This document shows, piece by piece, positions 1,507 through 25,963 of a stretch of DNA of 64,000 bases. The stretch is from Cliona cf. orientalis (taxonomy: Eukaryota > Porifera > Demospongiae > Clionaida > Clionaidae). The stretch is from contig OZ005704.1 of NCBI GenBank assembly GCA_963930775.1, positions 1,488,001 to 1,552,000 on the forward strand, given 5' to 3'. The notes under the pieces were generated by a model. It was not told the DNA's origin, did not search any database, and saw nothing but the letters and a program-made list of their open reading frames with translations. The position numbers were made by a program, and so were the translations under genes. Every line of letters begins with the position of its first letter. Position 1 is the first letter of the stretch.

Positions 1507-4500
1507 TTAGATTGTAGTGAATTGATCATAAGTGTTGACAATGCGACCGTTGCTCGACTGCCGTTGGGGGCGCTGTCTCTCTTGGCTCATTCTATCGTAG
1601 CCCAAACCGGAGTTCTGGCTTGCTCTCTCCTGATTTAGCTGCATCTGGGCTTCATACTTCATGGCCTCTTGAAGCACTCGGCTGCTGCCTTGGCTCTTCT
1701 CCACCTGTTCATCGATGTCGACTTCTCTGTAACGAGTGGAACCATAGTCCTTAGCAATCATGGCCGCTCGCTGGTTTTGCTGAAGTATACGTCGTCTCTC
1801 TTCTTCTGCCGTTTTCTTCATCAGTATCTCCCTTTGTTTCTGCAGTTCTCTCTCCTTGGCTTGCTGTCGGGTGATCTTTCCCACATATCTAGGGGAGCCT
1901 CGTCCGAGGTCGTAGAGTGGGATGTCTCGCTCGGGTATGTCATCGTGATGATTTCCAATCGCATTTCTGTTTGAGATTATCATTCCGTCTTGACTGGATT
2001 GGCTCCACCCATTTTCTCCTCGTCTCATACCCGATTTCTTCCTCAGTCCTCTTTGTCGTTGCAGCTGGCTGGAGTTGCTTGAATCCAGATCAGCCGATGG
2101 GAACATAAAGGAGGTCTCGTCGACCTCTACTGAACTACCGGAACTATCATCTCTGCCGTTGAACATTTCTTGTCTAGAGTTTCTCCGCTGACCACCGTTG
2201 TATAGTCCGTCCTCCATTGGGTCGCTCTGCTCGGGAACTGGGGGTAATTTTATGGGGTAGCCCTGCGATAGAGGATTGTGGTTGTGGTCGTGCCTGCTTC
2301 TTCTACTCCCACCGCTTCCCTTTCTCGGCTGATCGATCACTCCTGGGAAGGCGTCTGGCATGATCATTCCTCCACCCGAGCTGCCGCTGATGTTGAAAGG
2401 ACTATCCACAGGTATTCCTGGGTTGAAAGCCGAAGGCATGACGGGAGGGGGCATGCTTGGAAAGAAGTTGTTTCCGTCACTTCCAGATCCTATATGATCG
2501 GCTGGCGAGAGCTGAGACTGTGGAGTGAGTCCGAGGGAGAGGTAGGCCTGAGTTGGGTCATCGTTGAACGGCAGGTCAAAGTAGTCGTCTTCGATGTCGT
2601 ACGGACTCGTGCTGTTGCCTGATTTGCTGGTGAGTGTGGTCCCTGTGAAGGTCGTACCAGTTCCATGGTAGGGAGGAGGAGGGTGATCCAAGGTAGACTC
2701 AGAATATTGCTGTGGGTGTAAGAAGTGTATAATTTGTAATGATGACAACTCTGGAGACCTTTGACCCAAGAGGAGGCCATGAAGGGGTTAAAATTTGAAG
2801 ATCAAAATGTCATTATGTATTACCCAGCTAAGGCTATAGAAATAAGTAAATTTTACTACATGCTGCAAACTTACAAATTGCTTTCCTCTGATGGGTGCCT
2901 GTCTTCCTGGTTCAGGTGGCTCTCTGATGAGTGGCTTCATCGATGAGCCGCTCATGATTGCATCCTCAGTGGTGAGGTCTCCCTGGTAGATTTGGTGATT
3001 GGGTACAAGGTTCATTGACTCGGCCATGAAGATACCGGAATTTATGGAGTCCATCGGAACAAGATCACAGTGTGCAGGACTCTTCTCCTAATGGTATGAG
3101 ATACAATGTCAAGTGAAATTAAATATTTATGTGCTAAATTTGTGGAATACTTAATTAAATTTGTAATTAATAGCTACTGGCCTCAAAGCTAGTACACCCT
3201 TCTTTAGTGATGTCAGTTGTTATTATAGTGTCCTAGGCAAGCGTCCATTCCCAGGTAAGTGCCCATAAATTTCAAAGGTCAATGTAGCATCTCATTTTAC
3301 AATAGCTACTATGTCCACTGCATGATAACTACTCTTAAACTGACTGGGTATGATGTACTACATACCACTCCCTCTTCTTCTGAGAAGAAGTATCCATTGC
3401 TGTTTCTTCTTGCTGAAGTAGTATGATTGGAGTGAGGTCTGTATATTCCCCTCTTTCGATATCGTTTCCTGACAAATCCCACCACAAAGATCACCACGAC
3501 AACTGCTAAAGCAACGGCAACCACTCCGAGGACAGCTCCAACAATAGCAACTGAAGATCCACCACTGGGTGCAGATGTACTCCCAACAGTGGTAGTAGTT
3601 ATAGCTGGAGATGATTGAGAGTCACTGGTAGTAGAAGTTGTAGATTCTTTTACACTGCTTGTTGCTTCTGTTGATGTAGCATTCTGTGTGGTAGCTGTAT
3701 CTGGTTTTGTAGAGTCAGTCTCTTGTGTGGTAGTTGACTTTTCTGTAATAATTGGCTCTTGTGTGGTAGTCAGAGGTTCTGTTACAGTAGTAGTCTCTTC
3801 AGTAGTAATGGGCTCTTCAGTGGTAGGCTGTGTAGTTATTGGAGACTGTGTGGTGGTTGGAGTCTGTGTGGTGATTGACATTTCTGTAGTAGTTGAAGAC
3901 TCAGTGGTGGTCGGAGATTCTGTGGTGGTTGGAGCCTCTGTTGGAATTTCTGTAGTGGTAGGAGCTTCTGTGGTAGTTGGAGATTCAGTGCTAGTCACAG
4001 CTTCCGTAGTTGCTGGAGCCTCTGTAGTAGTCACCTCCTCTGTGGTGGTTGGAGCCTCTGTTGTAGTCATCTCCTCTGTGGTGGTTGGAGCCTCTGTTGT
4101 AGTCATCTCCTCTGTGGTGGTTGGAGCCTCTGTTGTAGTCATCTCCTCTGTGGTAGTTGGAGCCTCTGTTGTAGTCATCTCCTCTGTGGTAGTTGGAGCC
4201 TCTGTTGTAGTCATCTCCTCTGTGGTGGTTGGAGCCTCCGTACTAGTCGCCTCCTCTGTGGTAGTTGGAGCCGCTGTAGTCACCTCCTCTGTGGTAGTTG
4301 GAGCCTCTGTAGTCACCTCCTCTGTGGTGGTTGGAACCTCCGTAGTAGTCACCTCCTCTGTGGTGGTTGGAGCCTCCGTACTAGTCACCTCCTCTGTAGT
4401 GGTTGGAGCCTCAGTACTAGTCACCTCCTCTGTGGTAGTTGGAGCCGCTGTACTAGTCACCTCCTCTGTGGTAGTTGGAGCCTCTGTAGTCACCTCCTCT

Positions 4501-7500
4501 GTGGTAGTTGGAGCCTCAGTACTAGTCACCTCCTCTGTGGTAGTTGGAGCCGCTGTACTAGTCACCTCCTCTGTGGTAGTTGGAGCCTCTGTAGTCACCT
4601 CCTCTGTGGTAGTTGGAGCCTCTGTAGTCACCTCCTCTGTGGTAGTTGGAGACTCCGTACTAGTCACCTCCTCTGTGGTAGTTGGAGACTCTGTACTAGT
4701 CATCTCCTCTGTGGTAGTTGGTGCCTCCGTACTAGTCACCTCCTCTGTAGTGATTGGAGCCTCCGTACTAGTCACCTCCTCTGTGGTAGTTGGAGCCTCT
4801 GTAGTCACCTCCTCTGTGGTAGTTGGAGCCTCTGTAGTCACCTCCTCTGTGGTAGTTGGAGATTCTGTACTAGTCACCTCCTCTGTGGTGGTTGGAGACT
4901 CTGTACTAGTCACCTCCTCTGTCGTAGTTGGAGCCTCCGTACTAGTCACCTCCTCTGTGGTAGTTGGAGCCTCCGTACTAGTCACCTCCTCTGTAGTGGT
5001 TGGAGCCTCTGTAGTAATTGCAGCTTCTGTAGTGGTTGCAGCCTCTGTGGTAGTTGGAGACTCTGTAGTAGTTATCTCCTCCGTGGTAGTCACAGCTTCA
5101 GTGGTAGTTGGAGCCTCTGTAGTTATAGGAGCCAGTGTGGCCTCTGTGGTTGTTGGAGCCTCAGTAGTAATCGGAGTTGGTATGCAAGACTCTATTGCAC
5201 CTGACACGATGGTGGTGTTCACTGTCTGTATATCAAGGCTACTAGGATCTACTTCTTGATTTGCATCATTTTGAAGACTAACCTGAACTGATAGAAGCAC
5301 TACTAAAGTGAAGTTCTCTGTTTGAAAAGTTGAATTCACCAGAGCCATGAATATGACATTTTCCCTCTCTCTAGATAGTGGTGCTATTATAGTTCCTCCA
5401 TACATTCCATTGATTCCATTCTTTCGAGCTATTACTTCTTCATCAACAAATGTAGAATCAAATTCCTCTTGAAATGATACATTCTTGTGTGAGAAGTCAA
5501 GATAAATTTGAACCACATTCATAAACTCAAGCGCAGTATTTAGAGGCTCTATTGTACCACTGATAAGAAACTGACAAGGAGCGGAGTTATCTTGTAAAGA
5601 GAAAGTATAAAATATCCCAGAAACTGTGAATGATAGGTCTAAGCTGTTCCGTTCAACTGTGAATATCTGAGAGATACTTGGATTTCCGATGTTGGTTACA
5701 GTGACTCCACCCTCGGTGAGCTCTGCTCCTTGAGGGGTGCTGAAGTTAAACACTTCTGAGGCTAGAAATTCTTGAAGTACAAATACATCCCTGAGATCTC
5801 TTTCACAGTCACCGTTTATATCCACTTCTCTAGGAATGGGGCAAGTCTGACGCTTGGAGCGTAATCTATTGTACTCGTATGGTGACATTTCGTCATAGTA
5901 GTCATAATCGTAGGATAGTGGAGCCTCACGCTTTGATATAGATGATGAATCAGACACTTGGATTTCAATTTGACCAGAAGGAGAGCTGCTTTGCATATTT
6001 ATGATGCTCGGGATGACACTTGTATTTGCAGTGTAGTCAATGCTAACGTTGAAACTTAGCTTTCCTGCTTGCTCAGCTCTAAATGTCACGACAGCCAGCT
6101 CTGCTAAATCACTCTCAGCCCCTGTGTTCAGTACTCCCCCAATAGTGATCACACCACGGTTGTTCACTGCCGATATGATTGTTCCATTCTTCCAGTTTTC
6201 ACCCTGGATAATGTCCACGATTTCCAACTGAGAATTGGGATCATACGCCAATTCTAGCTCATACACACCCACAGCCTCTTGAGCTGAATTCACGACGACA
6301 GAAATTTCAAACATGTTGCCAGTTTTCACTTGTGTCTCCATGGGCTTGAGTCCCACCTCTCCTTGGCTGGGATTTAGGCTGACATTATAATATGTCTCGT
6401 ATGTGACATTATCTGTAGCAGATGCTATTAAACTGACTTCAGTGAGTGGATTTTTCAGCAGCTTAACAATGCTGGTATTTTTCTCAATATACAGAGTATC
6501 TGAATCAACTGTGGAGAATGTTATCAATCGAGGGTAGATTGGACTGCCATCTTGATCAAACAATGTGGTTAAAATAGTGCCATCTGTGAGAATTGCAGTA
6601 CAGTCGGCAAAGAGTGGCTCGTTCAATTCAGCAGATGTGCTTGAGAGAGTGATGCTAGTAATGCTACTAACTTCAACTGGATTGCTGTCAACAATGACAT
6701 CAAGAATGTCAGACTTGATGCTGTTATTCACCATTGTTGCTTGAAGTGAAATGTTATCTGTATCTATCCCTGAACCAAGTGAGTTTATATCGAGCTGATT
6801 AATGTTGATTATAACTATGTCAGAATTATTACTGACAACATCCACTCTCAATAGTTCAGGTGGGACTACCTCTGTTGTTCCATCTGTGAAGCTAATTGCT
6901 GCTCTGAGCATTGCTTGCTGGTAAATATCACTTGATCCGATTTGATTTAGCTGAGATATCACTGCATTATCACTCCCTCTATAGGCGGTCAGTATGAATG
7001 AATCAGATACTGTTCTCTTTACTGTAATTACATGTTCAGTAGCAAGATTTAATGTTGCAAACGTAATCTTTATGGTTGCATTTCCACCCATAATTCCATT
7101 TGTCTCTACTCTCCTTGTTGATCCTAGGTGATCAGCAAGCCTCACTAAAGCTTTGGAGTTGTCAAGAACCTCAAATGTCACATTTTCATGACTTGTGATG
7201 TTGCTCATAAATCCATCACTATAGGTGAGGTACACTTCGAGCAAGATATAATCAGGAGTTTCAAAGAATGTAGCTGCATCGTCAGAAGCAGTTAAGTAAT
7301 TTGAGGTTCCTTTTATAATGAGAATAGGGGCTTCAGTACTTTCACTGTACATGAATGAATCATTGGCTATGAAAGTGATATTTTCACATTCTTGAAGAGA
7401 TTCTAATTGCCACAAAATGCTGATATCGAAATAATTTATAGGACTGGAAATCTCATAGCTACTGCCACTTGGTGGTGTGGTCTGCTGTAGTGCATCATCC

Positions 7501-10500
7501 AGCCCTGGACCGGTAACAGCTATCTCCAAGGCATCATACTCTTCTGTGAGCAGCATTCTAGAATTATCGCTGAACTGGACAACTGGTACAATGTTCAACT
7601 TCGATCCTATAACATCAAATTCCTCCAGAAGTGTAATTGTTGCTTCACCCATATCAATCATTTCGTCTGGGATTTCGACACTGATTCCGCTGAAGGCAAA
7701 GATATCAAGGCATTCTGCTTCCACTGCATCGTTAGTGACATTGATCTCTACACCATATATTTCATCCAGTGTGGATACATATAGTGTAGTTATTCCAACA
7801 TCGATTCCTTCAACAAAGTAGCCATCTTCTGTTAGTTGTGCAATGCTCTCATTGCTCACACTTAGATAGGGCCGCAGTAAAGATGTGATATAAATTGTAG
7901 CGGTTGTGGTATCTGTTGATATTGTGGTCATAATGGCGAAGCTTGACTGCTGATAAAGGGTTGATCCATTTTCACACGTTGCCTCAGTTTCAATGGCGTT
8001 CAAAGTGTTATCTGCAAGAGTGATGTTGACTTCTTGTGAAGGTAACCACACTTTGAATGGAATGGTTCCGTTTGCTGCAAGAGATGACATCGTAGTTATT
8101 GTAATGCTAACCTCATCTCCTCCAAACATTTCAGAACCATCAAAATAGACATGCCTACAGTTCATATCAACTTTGATGATGTTCTCATTTTCAGACGAGC
8201 AAGTGGTATCGGTCGAAAGCAGATCGAGTTCACCGCTCATAACATTGAACCCATAAACACTCATATCTATTTCATCCACTTCCATTGTTAGTGTAGCTGT
8301 ATTGACAATTTCATTTTGGCTCGTACATGCAAATACTCCTGCATATTGCCTTGTTTCAATATGTGCCCTTCCTGTCATACTGTTCTCTCCATCTCGATTC
8401 AGTGATTGCACATATTTAATATTACGTTCCTCAACTAAATCACTGCCATTTGTAAGGACTAGCTTAAAAGTTTCACACTGAATATCGATATTGTCGCTGA
8501 TTTGATCTTCTTGGCGAATAAAAATAATGAGATCAGCAAGAGACTCAGTGAAGTTTATCTGATTAGTGTTGGTGCGATCATAGATTCTGAATCCCGTAAG
8601 TGATATTCTGTTGCTATCTGATGGATGCTCTCTAGGCAGAAGGCTCCAGGTGAAGTTGGACTCTGCACCCCTTAGTTCAGCAGCTGATCCCAGTACCCGA
8701 CAGTCGAGGCTGAACCCTGCTAGCCGTCTGTCAAATGAAGCATAAATTGGCACCCTGAACTCTTCACCGGGAAGAAGCGAGCGCTTTGGTGGAATCATAA
8801 ACACAGCAGTGTCGATTTGGGTCCGGCCGGTTGGCATTAAGGATACTGACCCTAGTTCAAATATATTTTCTTCGACCATTATTTTAATATTGGCCATAGT
8901 AATTCCACTCTCTGTAAACCACTGTTCTGGAATATCCAAAAGTGCTGTACTTGTTCCACATGGTGCTGAGATACTGCAGTTCGTTTCACTTATTGTGTCA
9001 TCTGTGAGACTTGTAAGGATTACTTCACAACCTGAATCTATATCAATGTTTGAATTGAACGAACTATCCCTCACTTGAAAGGCAACGGACACAGTAGGAT
9101 CATCTGACCACACCTCCCTGTTAGATACAAAGCCTATCAAATTATCTATTGGATCTGCATCAAGGTAATACATATTCGACTGTCCACTGAAACGGCCAAG
9201 CATTGCGTTCACAGCACCTGATCTACTCAACTGGCCACTCTGACCAATAAATTTGCCGAACATTATATTGTACGTTAGACCATATTCGTCTGAGTCATCA
9301 CGTGTGATGTCCTCATCTAAGATGAATCCTAGGCCTTCGGTGTCCACCTGAATTGGTGCCAGTGGTGTCTCACAAGATGGAAGGACGGTTGGAGTGGGTA
9401 AGAAAGCTGGCGTCGGAGTAGGAGTGGGAGAGAACATTGTGGAGGTGGGAATTGGTGTTGACGAGAACACTGGAGTAGATATGATGCTAGAGACTGCAGT
9501 TGGTGCAGATGTAAGAAATGTTGATATGAAAGTCTCCGAAGAACTGGCGATTGCTGACATGGAGCTAACAGCGAGAGATGGAGTTGGCGTGGATATCACA
9601 AGAGATGGTATAGTTATTGAACTTGAGGGGAAGGCGAATGTAGTCGGCTGTGGTGTGGATGTGACTGTAGGAGTACTTGATATGGTTGGAATTTCGCTTG
9701 TTTCTGAGAAAGGTTCTAATGATAGAGAATCTCCTGAACCAAAGTCCAGATCCCCAGAGCCTTCAGGAGTCATAGAGACAATTGGCGTACTACTACTTAA
9801 CACAGTGCTCCCTGTACTTGAAAATACTGGAGTCGTGGGGGCAATTGGTGTGCTACTGCTCATTATACGACCTGGTACACTTGATAATATCGGAGTCATG
9901 GAGACAGTTTGTGACGCAATTGGTGCACTAGATGCAACTGTTGTTTCTGCAATAGTTTGTGTGATGTCAATCAGACTTGTGAGCATTCCTGAAGAAGTGA
10001 AGGGTTGTGACATCAATTGAGTTTCTACAGATGCTAAAGAAATAGTAGTTGGTTCAGGAGAGGCACTCGCTGATGTTTCTTCTAAGCTCACGATCATGGT
10101 GGCAGCTGAGGTGCTTGGTGAGATTTCTAGTGTTGGTGTTGGTATGATTAGGCTTTGAATAGCTGTCGGCAGAGTAGTAGGGGTTGGTTCTATGGAAGAA
10201 GGAAGGAGTACAAGCACACTTCCTGTTGTCAAGGGTATTGATGATGTGATAATCATCTGCGAGGAACTTTCAGGTACAGTGGATGTTTCAGCAGCAGTGG
10301 TTGCTGAAGCGATTGTTGGCTGTGGGGTAGGTATGACTGTGTTCAGCATCATAACAGAAATCGGAAAGCTGACCGAGCCTAGAGCTGTTGTCGCTGGAAT
10401 GTTTGTTTCGGTAAGCGAAAGCAGGGGCATGCTGCCAGTTGTAAAGGGAGTTTGGGCTAAAGTTTCTGAAACTACTGGGGTTGCAATAGGTGGCAATGTG

Positions 10501-13500
10501 AGTAGTGTCGGGATGGGTGCTGCGCTGCTGATGGAGGAAGTTTGATTCACTACGTCCAAGGTTTCTGTAGCTGTAGACATTGATAGTGTTGGACTAGGCA
10601 ATGCAGTTGTATCCACTAATGCAAAGCTTGCTGTAGTCGGGATTGAGGGTAGCATTGTTGTGCTAACAACGGATGGAATCTGCTCAATGCTTTGAGTCGA
10701 ATCAACTAGAGGTGCAGAAACCTGGACCGTTTGCATACCGATTGTTGACGGTAATGGGGTCATTGAAACTATCCTAGAGCTTTCCATATCCAATTCCGTT
10801 GTGAATATTGGTACAGCCGATGTAGTAACAATAGGAATTGAAACTGAGGGAACGTTTGTGGCAGACTGATCAACAAGATTTGTAGGTGCTGCAGTAGGCT
10901 CAAGCACTAAACTACTTTGACTTGAAGGCTCTGGAGTTCTAGAGAGACTCACAAAATCATCAGAGCTAGTGTCACTAGATGAAGTAGCAATGCTGGGCTC
11001 CACGGATTGTGCAGATGTAGCAACTGCACTGGTATCACTAGATTCAGAGGTTGTTCTGATGGGGGCAGATACTGGCTCAGGTGAAGAGGAAGGAGACTCT
11101 TGCAGTACTATTGAAGAGGTCAAAATTGCAGCTCTTGTGCTAACGCTCGTGGGGCTGATGCTTTCTGGTTGGACCGTGGCAGCCACTGAAACTGCAGCTG
11201 AAGGTTGAACTGTAATGGTCAGGCTCACATCTCGTACTAGTGTAGCAGGCACTTGGGATGTCATGGATGTTGGGGCTATAAAAGTGGTGGTTGTTTCTTC
11301 TTCTGCTTGACTTGTCATTACTCCAACATCTTGTGATGTTGTTGTTGCTTGAATATTTGTTGGAGATACAGCTTCACTTGCGGTCATCACCAAGCTTTCT
11401 TGCACAACAGCGCTAGTTGTTTGTACCACTTGTTGCTCGGTAGAGCTTGTGGTTACCCCTTGGTCTTGGAATGAGCTTGAAGAAGCCTCTACTTGAGTAC
11501 TGTTCCCCATCGTTACTGTAGTTGATGGTGTAGGTGTTGAAGGAACCATAGTGGAGGCTGGAATTCCACCGCTAAACACAGACATGAATGCTCCGGCTGT
11601 TATTGAAGGTGCCTGAGGAGCTGCAATACTAGTCGATGGTTCAATAAATACCGCTGTAGTCATTGGATTACTTGGGATGGTGCTTGTGAAGCTACTAAGC
11701 ATATTGTCAGTTGTGGCCGGTTGGTCTGTTGCAGGTGTTGACTCTGGCTCAGTGACAGGTTGCATAGTGGAAGTGGAAGGGGCAATGGGCATTGTAGCTG
11801 ATGATACGAAGGTCATGGTAGTTGGAATGTTGATGCTCATTGTAGCCGACTGTAGCAGTATCATACTTGTCATAAATGGCACTACAGTATCGACTTCAGT
11901 CATTTCAGCAGATGTACTCATTGCCACGGAAACAAACATGTTTGAATTTCCTAGGTTATTGTCCACACTTGAAGTTGTGGGCATGGAGGGGACCAAGGCA
12001 GTATTGATTTCGGTCATTTCAGCAGATGTGCTCATTACCATGGCAACAGCAGATGTACTCATCACCATGAAAACAAACGTGTTCGAATTTCTCTCCACAT
12101 TTGAAGTGGTGGCCATGGAGGGGACCAAGGCTGTGGGGACTGTTGATGATGGCATGAGTAACTCACTCATTGACATTCCACTACCTTCATCTTCCATCAT
12201 CATCCCTGCAGTTTCAGGGCAGATAGTGGTGCAAGATTGTTCAAGGTCGAGGCAATAATTAGGACAGATTTCAATATCACTAATAGCAAAGTTTGTTGTC
12301 CCAGAGTTGACGAAGTCGCTCATGATGAGTCGCACTCTACTGGTATTGTAGTAGGTCTCAAACGGCGTCATATCTTCACTCGGTAGAGGCCTTGCATTAC
12401 TTTCAGTACCAGCAAGCTGCAAGTAGGGGGAGTATGTGAATGATCAATTAGGCGTCATGTAAATCTTAAGCACATCATTAAATGTGTGTAGTGGTATGTA
12501 GTGCTCACCAAGAATGTGAGGGTTGTAGCAGATGTATAGTGAAGGCAGTTGACTTCAAACGATCCTTTTAACCTGGAAAACAAAGGAAAGATTGGTGATT
12601 AAAGTTTTAATTATCAAAAAAAGCTTTCGGCTGTTGCAAAATTTCAAGAATGTAGGTTATATGAACTTACTGATCATCATTTCCCATGCCAAATGACTGC
12701 GTGCAGTCTTGAGCAAAGTATTGAAGGTCCCTCCAGTCTGAAATTTGCTCACTGTAGTACTGCAAGGTGGTCTTGACTGGAAGGTTGGAACTGAATGTGA
12801 TGAAGATCTTGGAGAGACTGACAGCAGGACTGAGACCAACCACTAGGCTCACTGGACTCTCATGATCGTCAGATTGCCACATTGTGGTGGTTGAGGTGTC
12901 TGTTGAGAACTCAGCTGCACGTGCATTCATATCATACCTGTATTGAATAATATCACTGGATCATGTATTGTGTACCAATAATCCTAGTTCTAGTTAGCAG
13001 GCCTTTCCTAGCTTAGCCGATCTGTAGTGCTCTACGTATGTGTAGTACAGTTTGGCTGCTATCAACTCAAACATGAACGAATGTTAAGGCTCTATCCATA
13101 TTAGGCTAGACTTGAACTATCATTAAACCCTGTGTCTAAAAGAGAACTCAAGTTATGCATAGCAAACGTAGGGATCCCCATATATATCTGCATTAATTTT
13201 GAACGTCAGCGGTAACTGAGAGTGTCACATGTGACTTCCTGGTGTATGGACATGATACTCTTGAGCCTAGTGCATTCGTATGGAATGATATACTGTATCA
13301 AATGCTGTAACCAGTGTCACGTATTTAATTCAGCCATCCCGTAACTCGTATTATATTATGTATGTAGCCAAGTATTGCACTATATTATAGTACACCTTAA
13401 GTGGTGTGTGGGGTATGTTTAATGATCTAATGACAAATATGTAAACTATGAGGATCGAATACACCTAGGGTCTGCCCTGCAACCCCACACATGTTCAAAT

Positions 13501-16500
13501 CACACACACACATACATAGCCGCATGAGTGGTTAGTGTATGGCCTAGGATTGTGTACTTGATATGCTTGGCAGAGCATGGGGCCTAGTTAGTCACAAGCA
13601 ACATGATATCGGGCAAGACAAGATTTATAAGTAAGTCTTTCTGTGTTTGTTGATGGTATCAGTTGAATGTTTATTAAATTCTAGCACCAGTAGTGCAGCA
13701 TGAATAATCTCTATGAATGGGTAAATGCTCAGCATAATATATTTATGCATCAATTTTGGAAATCAACAGCTATTCATTTTAGAATTAACATGATGGCTTG
13801 GATAAATAATTACTGAAAGGTTTAGTATCCATGGTAGCAAGCCCTATTATACAAACATTTAATGCTCATTGTAACCACAAGTACTTGTGCAAATTGAATT
13901 CTCAAATCTAATTATGAGGGTTCACTCCCATATTATTATACCTGATCAATTGTATCTCACCCCCATAGCCTCTGGGTACCAACCAACCTCTTGACCTCTG
14001 CTAATGAATAGGTTGGAACTGGAAGGTATGTACATGTAATACAGTAACTTTACATCATCATGCTTCGACAAAGCTTGTTGACCAGACACACTGCTACATA
14101 ACATTTCCGTAACATTTTCGGATCGTTAAGCAAGAGACAAGGATAGACTGATCCGATTAATATTTTGACTATCGGTAGCTCCAGCTAGGTATGATAAACA
14201 TTATAACTCAGTCACCTTCTCAGCTGAAAGCTAGCTGCGATATGATTGCTAAACTGATCCACCCGTGGAAGAGAAGTAGATTCACACCATTTTCCATGTG
14301 GGGTAATTTATATAAAATGTCACATCGGACTGGGACTAGACAACATCCTTAAATATATTCACGACACTAAATGCACTTCCATTGGCACTGAGCATGACTC
14401 TTGATTACGTAGTGAATGCAATTGAGCGCTCATCTTGCACAGCATGTGCATGCATGCTTATACAGCTATATAGCACAGTGCTATATTATAGTATTATTAA
14501 TTGGATAGTATAGTTTATATATTGTACTCTACTTATACAAACCAATTTCTGTGTATATGTATGTCGTCTCTATGGGGATTGACAGGTGGGAGAAGGGAGG
14601 GAAACTTGGTTTACATTCCAATCAACCAAACAGCTGTAAACCCACAAAGCTCTTCTAGCGAGCAACATGTAGCGTACATGCATGTAAGTCAAGTCATGCA
14701 TGTGAGATTCTACTCCTCACAGCATATATTATAATATTATACCTCATTATTGTTGATTCATCCATAGCTGTACACTCGGTTTCTCCTAGAGAAGTGGAGC
14801 TCCCACTCGGACAGAGGCACTGTGGGAGAAATGATGCTTCTTGTGGAACGACCACTCGAGTATTCATTGTTGCCAACTCAGGAACGTAGACTTGGACATC
14901 TTGGAGGTGGCCATTGAAGCCATCTCCTATGGTAATGCTGTTGATGGTGCTGGGAAACTGCACATCTGGATTGCTCATGTGATTGACTGGATCTAAGGCT
15001 GTTTCATTACCAAAGTGAGTCTCTAGATTCCATGTTCCTGACTCATCTTGAAAAGTGAAAAATACCGATTTCCACTGACCAGCGAGAGACGCACCATATG
15101 TTGCTATAGTGACTCTATTCTTTTCGATCAACTGTGGTAGAAATAGTTCCAATTGCAGCTCTGAGGTATAGCGAATGGCAACCTGATTATTGAGCTCAAA
15201 CAAAGTCCTGTAGTGAAGAGATGAGTAACATGAGAAGCTTAGAGGGTTAGGGAGCAATTAAGCATTCTTCGTTGGAATCTTAAACAGCCATTATCAAACT
15301 TGGACTGCAATGAAAAATGCTTTTTTAATCGTTTGTTTCTGATCTTAGGTTTCCTATCGAATTCCTTCATCTAGTGGGTAATCATATGTGTCAATCCAAG
15401 TTCCTAAAACATAATATCACAACTGGGCTTTGTTAATGTTCATGCATACTACTGGTAAGAGTGTGTAAACAAAATTGAGCTATCAATAAGCCAAGAAATG
15501 CTGACTCACCCATTCGGCACTTGCTCCTTGAAGTATACTGCGATGGTATAGCGCTTCAGGCTCAATTCTCTGAGATCGGCCAGTAAGTCCTCGGGAACCG
15601 AGAACGAATTATTGCCATAGAATCGGACGGATGAGGACGTTCTTCTAGGGTAGGACTCGTCTGAGTGTACCAGGCTCTGTAGATAGCAGAGGGGAGAAAA
15701 ATGCATGGAATTAAAAATCATCATTGGAGCACTCCAATGTAGTTAATTAATTCTTGATCACTGCATGCATGCATGCCACGTTGCTGGGAACTAGAGCTAC
15801 AGACATAACTAAGAGAAGATGAAGTGTGGATCCTACCTACATGTGTGCTATCACAAACCGTCACGGATCAGGGATTGCCCTCTCGATTAATATAATATAT
15901 ATACTTTGATGTGACACCTGTACTGCAAGGGACAAGGTTAGCTGATACGGCCGAATGCCAATCGTACCTTCCCACTTACCACTTGGGAGAGCCTACACAC
16001 ACATATGAACACGCTCAAGTATTGGCGCCCATGCATGCATGCATGAGACGCACTACCACGCTTAAAGCTAAAGTTCATTGCAGCTATAATAGCTAATAAC
16101 ATGCAGCTGCAAACATAAAGCAGATAAAGTCCTAATCCATCGGTCTCTAGAGTTTAATAGCTAATATTGCCCTCGAGAAGGTAAAAATAGACACGCATTA
16201 AAGATCTTAGTGCGCTAGCTACTGTTACAGAAATTGATAGCTTTGTGAGATGTTTCGAATAATTGTGGGAGAATGAATTTAAATGCTGTTGATAGGTACA
16301 CTCAAATCTGGATGACACAAAACAGTAGCTACAGTAGTATCAGTACAAGTGCTTACCATGTAAGAAGGGTGACATCTTGAGGGGAAAAGTGGGTAAAATT
16401 CATTATTAAGGCACAAAGAAGCACAAGACGAACACGTTGAATTGGCGTAGGTGCAGTCGACATTATCACGGGTAGACAGACTCTGAGCATTACTTGATAA

Positions 16501-16560
16501 CAACACGACACAGAATAACAAATACACGAACATAGATGAGAAATTTGATTGAGAAGTCAT
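1507..16560 (-). CDS. Giant single-pass membrane protein: LamG/LamNT head, TMEM132-like core, cohesin, dockerin-like motif, mucin repeats
   Basis: Eight exons in transcript order: 16560-16357, 15676-15510, 15207-14743, 12937-12671, 12572-12509, 12416-3366, 3087-2875, 2709-1507; about 3877 aa. Residues 1-29 are a signal peptide (another ATG 24 bp upstream is in frame). About 125-275 resembles a laminin-G-like jellyroll. About 285-440 resembles a laminin N-terminal domain (TMWQSDD, YFAQDCTQSFG). About 460-1405 is Ser/Thr/Pro mucin. About 1410-2395 resembles the TMEM132 core (VPIYASF, GITTLYVS, VVQFSDNS). About 2414-2531 is a cohesin fold (YELELAYDPNS). RSKR precedes a dockerin-like calcium loop (DINGDCERDLRD) near 2590. 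Thr/Glu/Pro repeats, one membrane helix (about 3345-3371) and a 505-aa tail with PPPPY and a coiled coil follow. It is probably a surface adhesion or matrix-binding protein. The architecture is seen directly; the family names are my recognition. Confidence 0.8.
3227..3266. mobile_element. Fragment of the AGTGTCC...GCAAGCGTCC repeat family
   Basis: AGTGTCCTAGGCAAGCGTCC followed by CCCAGGTAAGTGCCCAT matches the left end and (reverse-complemented) an interior segment of the element at 60233-60381. It lies in the 278-bp intron of the giant gene (3088-3365). Only one end remains. Confidence 0.6.
3700..5210 (-). repeat. Coding minisatellite, 36/39-bp unit, Thr-Glu-Ala-Pro repeats
   Basis: About 40 tandem copies of a unit reading TTEAPTTTEEVT (36 bp) or TTEAPTTTEEVTS (39 bp) on the minus strand, with Ser/Ala/Val/Ile variants at fixed positions. 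Six successive units at about 4040-4245 are nearly identical 36-mers (EMTTTEAPTTTE), which indicates recent unit duplication or homogenisation. All length steps are multiples of three. It forms a membrane-proximal stalk likely to be densely O-glycosylated on Thr. The plus strand is also fully open here because of codon bias in the repeat. Confidence 0.95.
9370..12200 (-). other. Ser/Thr/Pro mucin-like domain in the giant gene
   Basis: Roughly 940 residues dominated by Ser, Thr, Pro, Val and Ala with few charges and almost no Cys, for example repeated SSTPIVSMTP-type phrases near 9,760-9,900. Unlike the 3,700-5,210 array it has no strict period. It separates the laminin-like head from the TMEM132-like core and probably acts as an extended, O-glycosylated spacer. 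Confidence 0.8.
12938..14742 (-). other. Large intron of the giant gene, nothing coding seen
   Basis: A 1.8-kb AT-rich intron between the LamG-like and LamNT-like exons. The flanking exons join in phase (AG|G) without it. I found no further domain exon, tRNA or obvious transposon; the only sizeable ORF (14501-14734, +) has no recognisable features. Confidence 0.6.
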
Positions 16561-17060
16561 TTTGAATTCATTCACGATAGACATTGTACAGTTACTCGCT
16601 CTCTCGGGAGCGCTAGCACTGCGATAATGGTATCTTTTCCTTACTCCACAAGTGCAGGCTGGATCCATTGCTACGGCAGCTGCTGTTTGTTCTGCCGCAG
16701 CTGCCGTTGTTGTCGAAGTCGGACAAGTGCGGCGATGCGCGATCGGAGGAGGTGCGCCCTCTTCTCGCGTGCATTCAGCTTGCTGGACCCTCGGCAAGCT
16801 AATATAGCCCTGAGAAATCTCTTCTTGCCGTCCCAGCTTTGATATCTCCGTGAAATAGCGTCGTTAGTTAGCTGTCCTTTAGTCACTGATATGATCCTCC
16901 AGCTTCGATTACAAGTTCCTTCGCGCAAGAGCGATTTTGGGGGCGTGGCATGTTTCATGCAGGGCTAGGCTAGGGTGCAAAGGGCTCGAGGTACGTAGTA
17001 TACGGAAAGTTGCACGGAAGCTAGATCGTTAGCCAGCAGATATAATAATTATATGGACTC
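16561..17060. promoter_or_regulatory. Bidirectional promoter/5' UTR region, giant gene and AOX-like gene
   Basis: About 500 bp separates the divergent start codons of the giant membrane gene (-) and the molybdo-flavoenzyme (+). It is more GC-rich than the introns. I did not identify a TATA box or specific factor sites; the promoter role is inferred from the head-to-head arrangement. ORFs inside it (16549-16842 +, 16671-16958 -) look like chance frames. Confidence 0.45.

Positions 17061-25963
<8,903 letters not shown>

Follow-up and report, generated by a model that had tools for sequence, protein, structure and literature searches.

What kind of protein does a sponge encode in an open reading frame of 3,044 amino acids (aa), and does it belong to a family that is already known? 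The frame lies on the minus strand of a 64-kb stretch of the Cliona cf. orientalis genome (C16:1488001-1552000, in an assembly of 216.8 Mb and 149 contigs), which is referred to here as the window; positions without a contig name are those of the whole window, and all features of the gene are on its minus strand. The length of the frame is far above chance. A preliminary description had joined it to seven further exons and proposed a possibly undescribed architecture, composed of an usherin-like head, a TMEM132-like core, a cohesin, a dockerin-like motif, a mucin stalk and a PPxY tail. Sequence comparison suggests that the product may be a single-pass adhesion receptor of the cell surface that lacks cadherins, is related to the giant cadherins of lefftyrin/coherin type in the same genome and is cut by a convertase. 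Receptor nature, kinship and cutting taken together appear to us evenly poised between right and wrong; the pairing of the cut halves is graded apart from them.

The argument starts from the C-terminal cohesin (aa 2402-2558, 5910..6380) and the region behind it. The 157-aa segment scanned alone matched PF00963 at 6.2e-9 (36.6 bits, cut-off 24.1), and its profile reached cohesins of the PDB (best 8.3e-4), which agrees with the cohesin of the preliminary description. The Pfam scan of the window protein covered aa 1-500, aa 1400-2820 and exon 8. The cohesin was absent from the scan of the 1,421-aa piece and from the whole-genome search, which gave three cohesin places, all on C17. It was probably lost to a speed filter in these long scans, because the cohesin of a paralogue was listed in the genome search but not in the scan of its frame. 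The segment belongs to a module with seven copies, one in the window and three at each of two C17 loci (genes A and B), and the cohesin matched Pfam at E <=1 in six of the seven.

The dockerin region (5568..5846) contains the calcium loop DINGDCERDLRD at aa 2588 (5787..5822), which was aligned in all seven copies and fits the strict pattern in each of them. Loop 2 fits this pattern in five of the seven, has one altered position (by eye) in copy A34 and is lost in the window copy; since the latter has one loop, the earlier wording of a dockerin-like motif was apt. A six-copy profile of the region reached PDB dockerins (best 3.5e-6). Pfam Dockerin_1 matched two of six copies; copy B3c has two type I loops together with PF00404 over the cut-off, a combination not found in the window copy, and copy B3a cut out whole gave a weak match (0.035). 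We read the window motif as a putative remnant of a real dockerin. A cysteine occupies loop position 6 in six of the seven copies, with further cysteines just upstream; these perhaps form a disulfide staple, which bacterial dockerins are not known to have. Seven dockerin matches were found in the genome, four of them over the cut-off including B3c. The frames on C9, C12, C8, C16 and C15 were set aside as EF-hand-like by eye, and the match on C10 was in no frame of 60 aa.

Cohesin and dockerin are connected by a linker (aa 2548-2587, 5823..5942), which was analysed by motif scan, shuffles and alignment. It contains the sequence RSKR (aa 2575-2578, 5850..5861; predicted cut before Gln2579), a site that did not appear among the features of the preliminary description and is the sole R-x-[KR]-R in the 3,877 aa of the protein. 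R-x-[KR]-R is the consensus of furin-type convertases. Six such sites were found in 26,933 aa, made up of the window protein together with ten frames from both C17 loci (two of these frames are unrelated to cadherins). All six are in cohesin-dockerin linkers, distributed over five of the seven copies, and none was found in the other 9,393 module residues. Shuffling of whole modules gave a mean of 0.02 linker sites, shuffling inside the linkers a mean of 0.47 copies with a site, and five copies were reached in 0 of 5,000 shuffles of either kind. The basic residues of the linker could also be incidental, or could bind heparin or extracellular matrix in an adhesion molecule that remains uncut; basic clusters can bind glycosaminoglycans, and two of the seven copies (B3a and B3b) have no site. 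Against this stand the exact consensus in five copies and nowhere else in the residues searched, and the failure of the within-linker shuffles to reach that number, so that we hold the uncut molecule to be improbable. The placement of the sites argues instead that convertases likely cut most copies.

A mechanism may be proposed on this basis. The Laminin_N head and the Ig/cohesin core, carried on a mucin spacer, would reach the matrix or a neighbouring cell, the head suggesting matrix binding, while the Thr-rich stalk would raise the molecule above the membrane and the PPxY and PDZ-ligand-like tail would recruit WW and PDZ proteins. In the secretory path, a furin-type convertase would cleave the linker behind the C-terminal cohesin, giving an outer half that ends in the cohesin and a membrane half that begins with the dockerin. 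Where the dockerin is complete, calcium-dependent pairing might then keep these halves together, either in cis or by exchange with a neighbour, as a joint that calcium or force could open. We propose the pairing tentatively, with somewhat less than even confidence. In the window copy it would probably be weaker because dockerin loop 2 is lost, hence the ectodomain might be shed, and shedding is there at least as likely as pairing. The same receptor could also be cut only to shed the ectodomain or to remove a long pro-part, the dockerin being a calcium-binding spacer that pairs with nothing. This would suit the window copy, which still keeps RSKR after the loss of loop 2. It is less easily reconciled with the other copies, where loop 1 and mostly loop 2 are kept beside the cohesin, although calcium binding alone would also explain their retention; overall we consider cutting without pairing rather unlikely.

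The kinship of the receptor was assessed from the core (~1,400 aa), for which the preliminary description had proposed a TMEM132-like nature. The fourth TMEM132 domain (Ig_TMEM132_4th, PF16070; aa ~1751-1850, 8034..8333) was matched at 1.1e-16, with 60.9 bits against a cut-off of 27. The blocks around it follow the TMEM132 order with weaker matches: an Ig_TMEM132_2nd-like block (aa 1408-1594, 8802..9362) at E 0.021, below the cut-off and with weak matches in four of six copies, and a fifth and sixth-like block (7308..8036) at 2.7e-4 and 0.07, respectively, both below the cut-off. The TMEM132_3rd cohesin-like block (aa 1588-1735, 8379..8822) matched PF23039 in four of six copies (best 0.0021), the window copy giving no match; its profile also matched that of the C-terminal cohesins (E 2.9e-5, probability 73.8%). 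Extra Ig-like repeats follow (6372..7307; their length suggests about three), which are in part a repetition of the block before them (profile match E 7.5e-9 between the blocks). After the cohesin and dockerin the module closes with a C-terminal end that is conserved in the alignment (5190..5606). In searches of the PDB, no match below E 0.028 was obtained with the profiles of the Ig blocks and none up to E 1 with that of the TMEM132_3rd-like block.

The gene is not a canonical TMEM132, and this candidate was rejected. In a six-frame genome search that scored the best candidates only, TMEM132_N had no match and TMEM132_C six matches at E <=1, none of which passed the cut-off or fell at the window gene. 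A pattern search of the window tail found neither WIRS nor RVxF, and the protein has a second, true Pfam cohesin behind the Ig-like domains. The TMEM132-like core of the preliminary description thus stands for the fourth domain but not for membership of the family.

The genome search found Ig_TMEM132_4th six times, once in the window and five times on C17 (frames of 1,356, 4,809 and 8,028 aa). At gene A (C17:2027-2076 kb), the order is laminin_G_3 (4.3e-5, below the cut-off), Laminin_N (7.1e-23) with EGF_laminin, a long cadherin array and three module copies with more cadherins between them, ahead of a hydrophobic segment (by eye); a tyrosine phosphatase piece (5e-33) is found 6 kb beyond this segment. 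These parts appear to form one gene, as judged from their strand, the small gaps and the modules that span two of the gaps, at both of which canonical splice sites are readable. The lefftyrin definition, which comprises Laminin_N, laminin EGF, cadherin repeats and tyrosine phosphatase, describes the gene A locus completely; of these features Laminin_N was found in the window gene, and EGF, cadherin and phosphatase were not found in the pieces scanned. Gene B (C17:2143-2174 kb), presumably also a single gene, contains cadherins and three copies of the module, with traces of an incomplete fourth. BLASTP with the window core gave alignments of 1,081-1,379 columns with the gene A copies (E 1.1e-41, 1.4e-36 and 3.9e-34) and matches of 9.1e-24 and weaker with those of gene B.

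The seven copies (core of ~1,300 aa) are 19.5-28.8% identical and share one domain order in the alignment: Ig_TMEM132_2nd-like, TMEM132_3rd cohesin-like, Ig 4-6, extra Ig-like, cohesin, dockerin and conserved end, with B3a and B3b truncated at this end. The module tree was weakly supported, grouping the window copy with B3c at 0.693 in FastTree, with values of 54-79 in IQ-TREE, so that B3c is at most a candidate for the nearest relative of the window copy. A coherin combines a cohesin with cadherin repeats; the window gene has the cohesin, and no cadherin was found in the pieces scanned. Hedge-type signal domains are also present in the genome and, like the lefftyrin-like gene, are consistent with a sponge or another early animal without proving it. 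The pre-membrane region of gene A looked FN3-like by eye but matched 0 Pfam families, and an FN3 assignment was dropped. The giant cadherin frames of these loci (L014-L018 and L021-L024) are nearly free of lysine: 8 of 6,328 aa (0.13%) at C17:2054701-2073684, 18 of 4,809 (0.37%) at 2040218-2054644 and 36 of 8,028 (0.45%) at 2146116-2170199, with 2.4-3.8% arginine. The scarcity is not explained by G+C richness because third-position GC is only 0.35-0.38. For comparison, lysine makes up 6.4% of a nearby kinase frame and 1.7% of the window module, and the window mucin has 0 in 951 aa.

The head of the protein contains a Laminin_N domain at aa 266-382 (6.6e-12; 45.8 bits, cut-off 25.9; profile positions 38-159), which also reached netrins in the PDB (best E 0.0033); the head as such matched that of gene A at 5.3e-16. 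The LamNT-like head of the preliminary description was thereby confirmed. The LamG-like segment proposed in front of it gained no support: it matched 0 Pfam families, and its pairwise score with the gene A head was equalled by 378 of 1,000 shuffles. Neither laminin EGF nor cadherin repeats nor a tyrosine phosphatase was detected in the pieces scanned by Pfam. The usherin (USH2A) features are LamG-like, Laminin_N, laminin EGF and FN3, and only Laminin_N was found among the scanned pieces. An usherin orthologue was therefore rejected as the principal explanation, also because the gene A locus of the same genome shares the type of head and the core, which makes the reported likeness to usherin superficial. 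The reported absence of laminin EGF repeats after the head was borne out in these pieces; it is more aptly read as setting the gene apart from a lefftyrin-like cadherin, because gene A has EGF and dozens of cadherins between head and core. An alignment that included three other Laminin_N loci added no information. A further Laminin_N gene, whose frames look EGF-like by eye (L026, C16:1983001-1993000), lies on the same contig at a distance of about 0.5 Mb and is possibly the usherin-like gene of this animal.

Are head and core parts of the same gene? Eight exons give 3,877 aa with a single terminal stop in the splice and phase check, and a GT donor and an AG acceptor are present at all seven junctions with the phase kept, in agreement with the preliminary description of one gene of about that length. 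Exon 1 (16357..16560) encodes a signal-peptide-like start by eye (aa 1-68), with further in-frame ATGs upstream that make the start codon uncertain. Exon 2 (15510..15676) begins the head, and exon 3 (14743..15207) covers the rest of the proposed LamG-like region and the Laminin_N domain from aa 266, which continues through exon 4 (12671..12937) to the final part of the Pfam match in exon 5 (12509..12572). Exon 6 (3366..12416; 9,051 bp) lies inside the long frame and encodes the probable Laminin_N end, mucin, core module, stalk and transmembrane segment; exon 7 (2875..3087) and exon 8 with the stop codon (1507..2709) encode the tail.

The joins of exons 3/4 and 4/5 are well supported because one stretch of the Laminin_N profile crosses both, and that of exons 5/6 by splice signals and phase. 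Two neighbouring genes could have been misjoined, with exons 1-5 encoding a Laminin_N protein and the exons from 6 onwards a separate TMEM132-cohesin receptor, a possibility compatible with the other explanations given for the core. The 1.8-kb intron between exons 3 and 4 and the start of exon 6, which has no significant Laminin_N match, would fit this. However, one Laminin_N match extends over exons 3-5, exon 5 is separated from exon 6 by 92 bp and agrees with it in donor, acceptor and phase, and gene A has the same head type before the same core. Two joined genes are thus unlikely, in our estimate very much so, and the locus probably holds a single gene. A gene start resembling xanthine dehydrogenase/aldehyde oxidase (recognised by eye) lies on the plus strand at 17049-17429, head to head with the adhesion gene and with start codons about 0.5 kb apart. 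A long CT dinucleotide run is present at ~560-690.

The mucin stalk and PPxY tail of the preliminary description were recovered. By composition, two Ser/Thr/Pro-rich stretches of 951 aa and 538 aa were found: a first mucin-like stretch (aa 450-1400, 9384..12236; 19% Ser, 18% Thr, 11% Pro, no Lys) between head and core, and a stalk of TTEAP-type repeats (aa 2803-3340, 3564..5177; 43% Thr) in front of the putative transmembrane segment, which was located by hydrophobicity by eye (~aa 3344-3370, 3474..3554). The cytoplasmic tail of 507 aa contains PPPY at aa 3488 (motif search) and ends in TTI, presumably a class I PDZ ligand. Exon 8 matched 0 Pfam families, and a genome search for relatives of the tail at E 0.1 found none save a 26-aa piece some 2.5 kb to the left of the window (C16:1485391-1485468). 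This piece is 85% identical to the last 26 aa of the tail, has two stops and is, as judged from the sequence, a decayed partial copy.

Several observations weigh against a cut receptor of this kinship. With regard to the dockerin, the window region has one loop and no Pfam match (PF00404), and copy A3a cut out whole gave no Pfam dockerin either; the presence of cohesin and dockerin on the same chain is, moreover, no proof that they bind each other. The two copies without a site indicate that cutting is not needed everywhere, and because the copies are related by descent, the six sites do not amount to six separate events, their number counting conservation more than independent origin. Phmmer searches with the window core gave no match in the PDB and nothing among the C17 frames, so that kinship rests on BLASTP and alignment. 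Finally, homology does not support the join of exons 5 and 6: the first 80 aa of exon 6 matched 0 Pfam families, and the score of its start with the gene A Laminin_N C-terminus was reached by 390 of 1,000 shuffles.

What is new here lies in the combination. Large adhesion proteins that carry a TMEM132 core with cohesin have already been published for sponges and choanoflagellates (lefftyrins, coherins, hedglings; PMC6030884), and cohesins of coherins are likewise described in PMC8164589. The possibly undescribed architecture proposed earlier does not hold to that extent. In the literature searched (Nichols et al. 2012 outside it), we met no mucin-stalked, cadherin-free member, no cohesin with a dockerin loop in every copy and no convertase-type site between the two; a search for TMEM132 and furin gave, by title, no paper on a cut TMEM132 among the matches listed. 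In PMC6030884 it was left open whether the TMEM132 cohesin forms a strong bond, partly since no dockerin was detectable in vertebrates. The present genome has cohesin and dockerin loops adjacent in seven copies, five of them with convertase-type sites, and this side-by-side arrangement makes the bond question directly testable with small recombinant pieces. Early animals might have made the cohesin-dockerin pair of bacteria into a breakaway joint within the receptor itself, dependent on calcium, by which contacts would open and re-form; in the window gene, as a cadherin-free branch, this joint would have weakened into a switch for shedding. We regard this scenario as doubtful. For Ephydatia, PMC4942974 reports choanocyte enrichment or expression of usherin, harmonin, myosin VII and four uncharacterised cadherins. 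A collar role for the window gene would be a guess.

The window gene is not a member of the TMEM132 family, the lefftyrins or the usherins, because for each of them a tested feature was not found, and its likeness to known systems is partial in every case. With usherin (USH2A) it shares the Laminin_N head and perhaps a LamG-like region before it, whereas core and tail differ and no laminin-EGF or FN3 was found. The TMEM132 family (PMC6030884) is similar in the fourth domain over the cut-off, in the second, fifth and sixth domains matched weakly and below the cut-off, but in order, in the third domain (matched in other copies only, not in the window) and in one transmembrane segment by eye; the window gene differs by the extra Ig-like repeats, the second cohesin and the dockerin remnant after the core. 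Lefftyrins, coherins and hedglings (PMC6030884, PMC8164589, PMC5097364) also have a TMEM132-type core and cohesin in a large adhesion protein, and the Laminin_N head is as at gene A; in the window gene, however, long mucin stretches and an unrelated tail are present, and cadherin repeats, laminin-EGF and phosphatase were not found in the pieces scanned. Finally, bacterial cellulosomal cohesin-dockerin pairs resemble the animal copies in Pfam Cohesin over the cut-off, dockerin-type calcium loops and PDB profile matches, whereas here both partners are on one animal chain with a convertase-type site between them, and the window dockerin is reduced to one loop.

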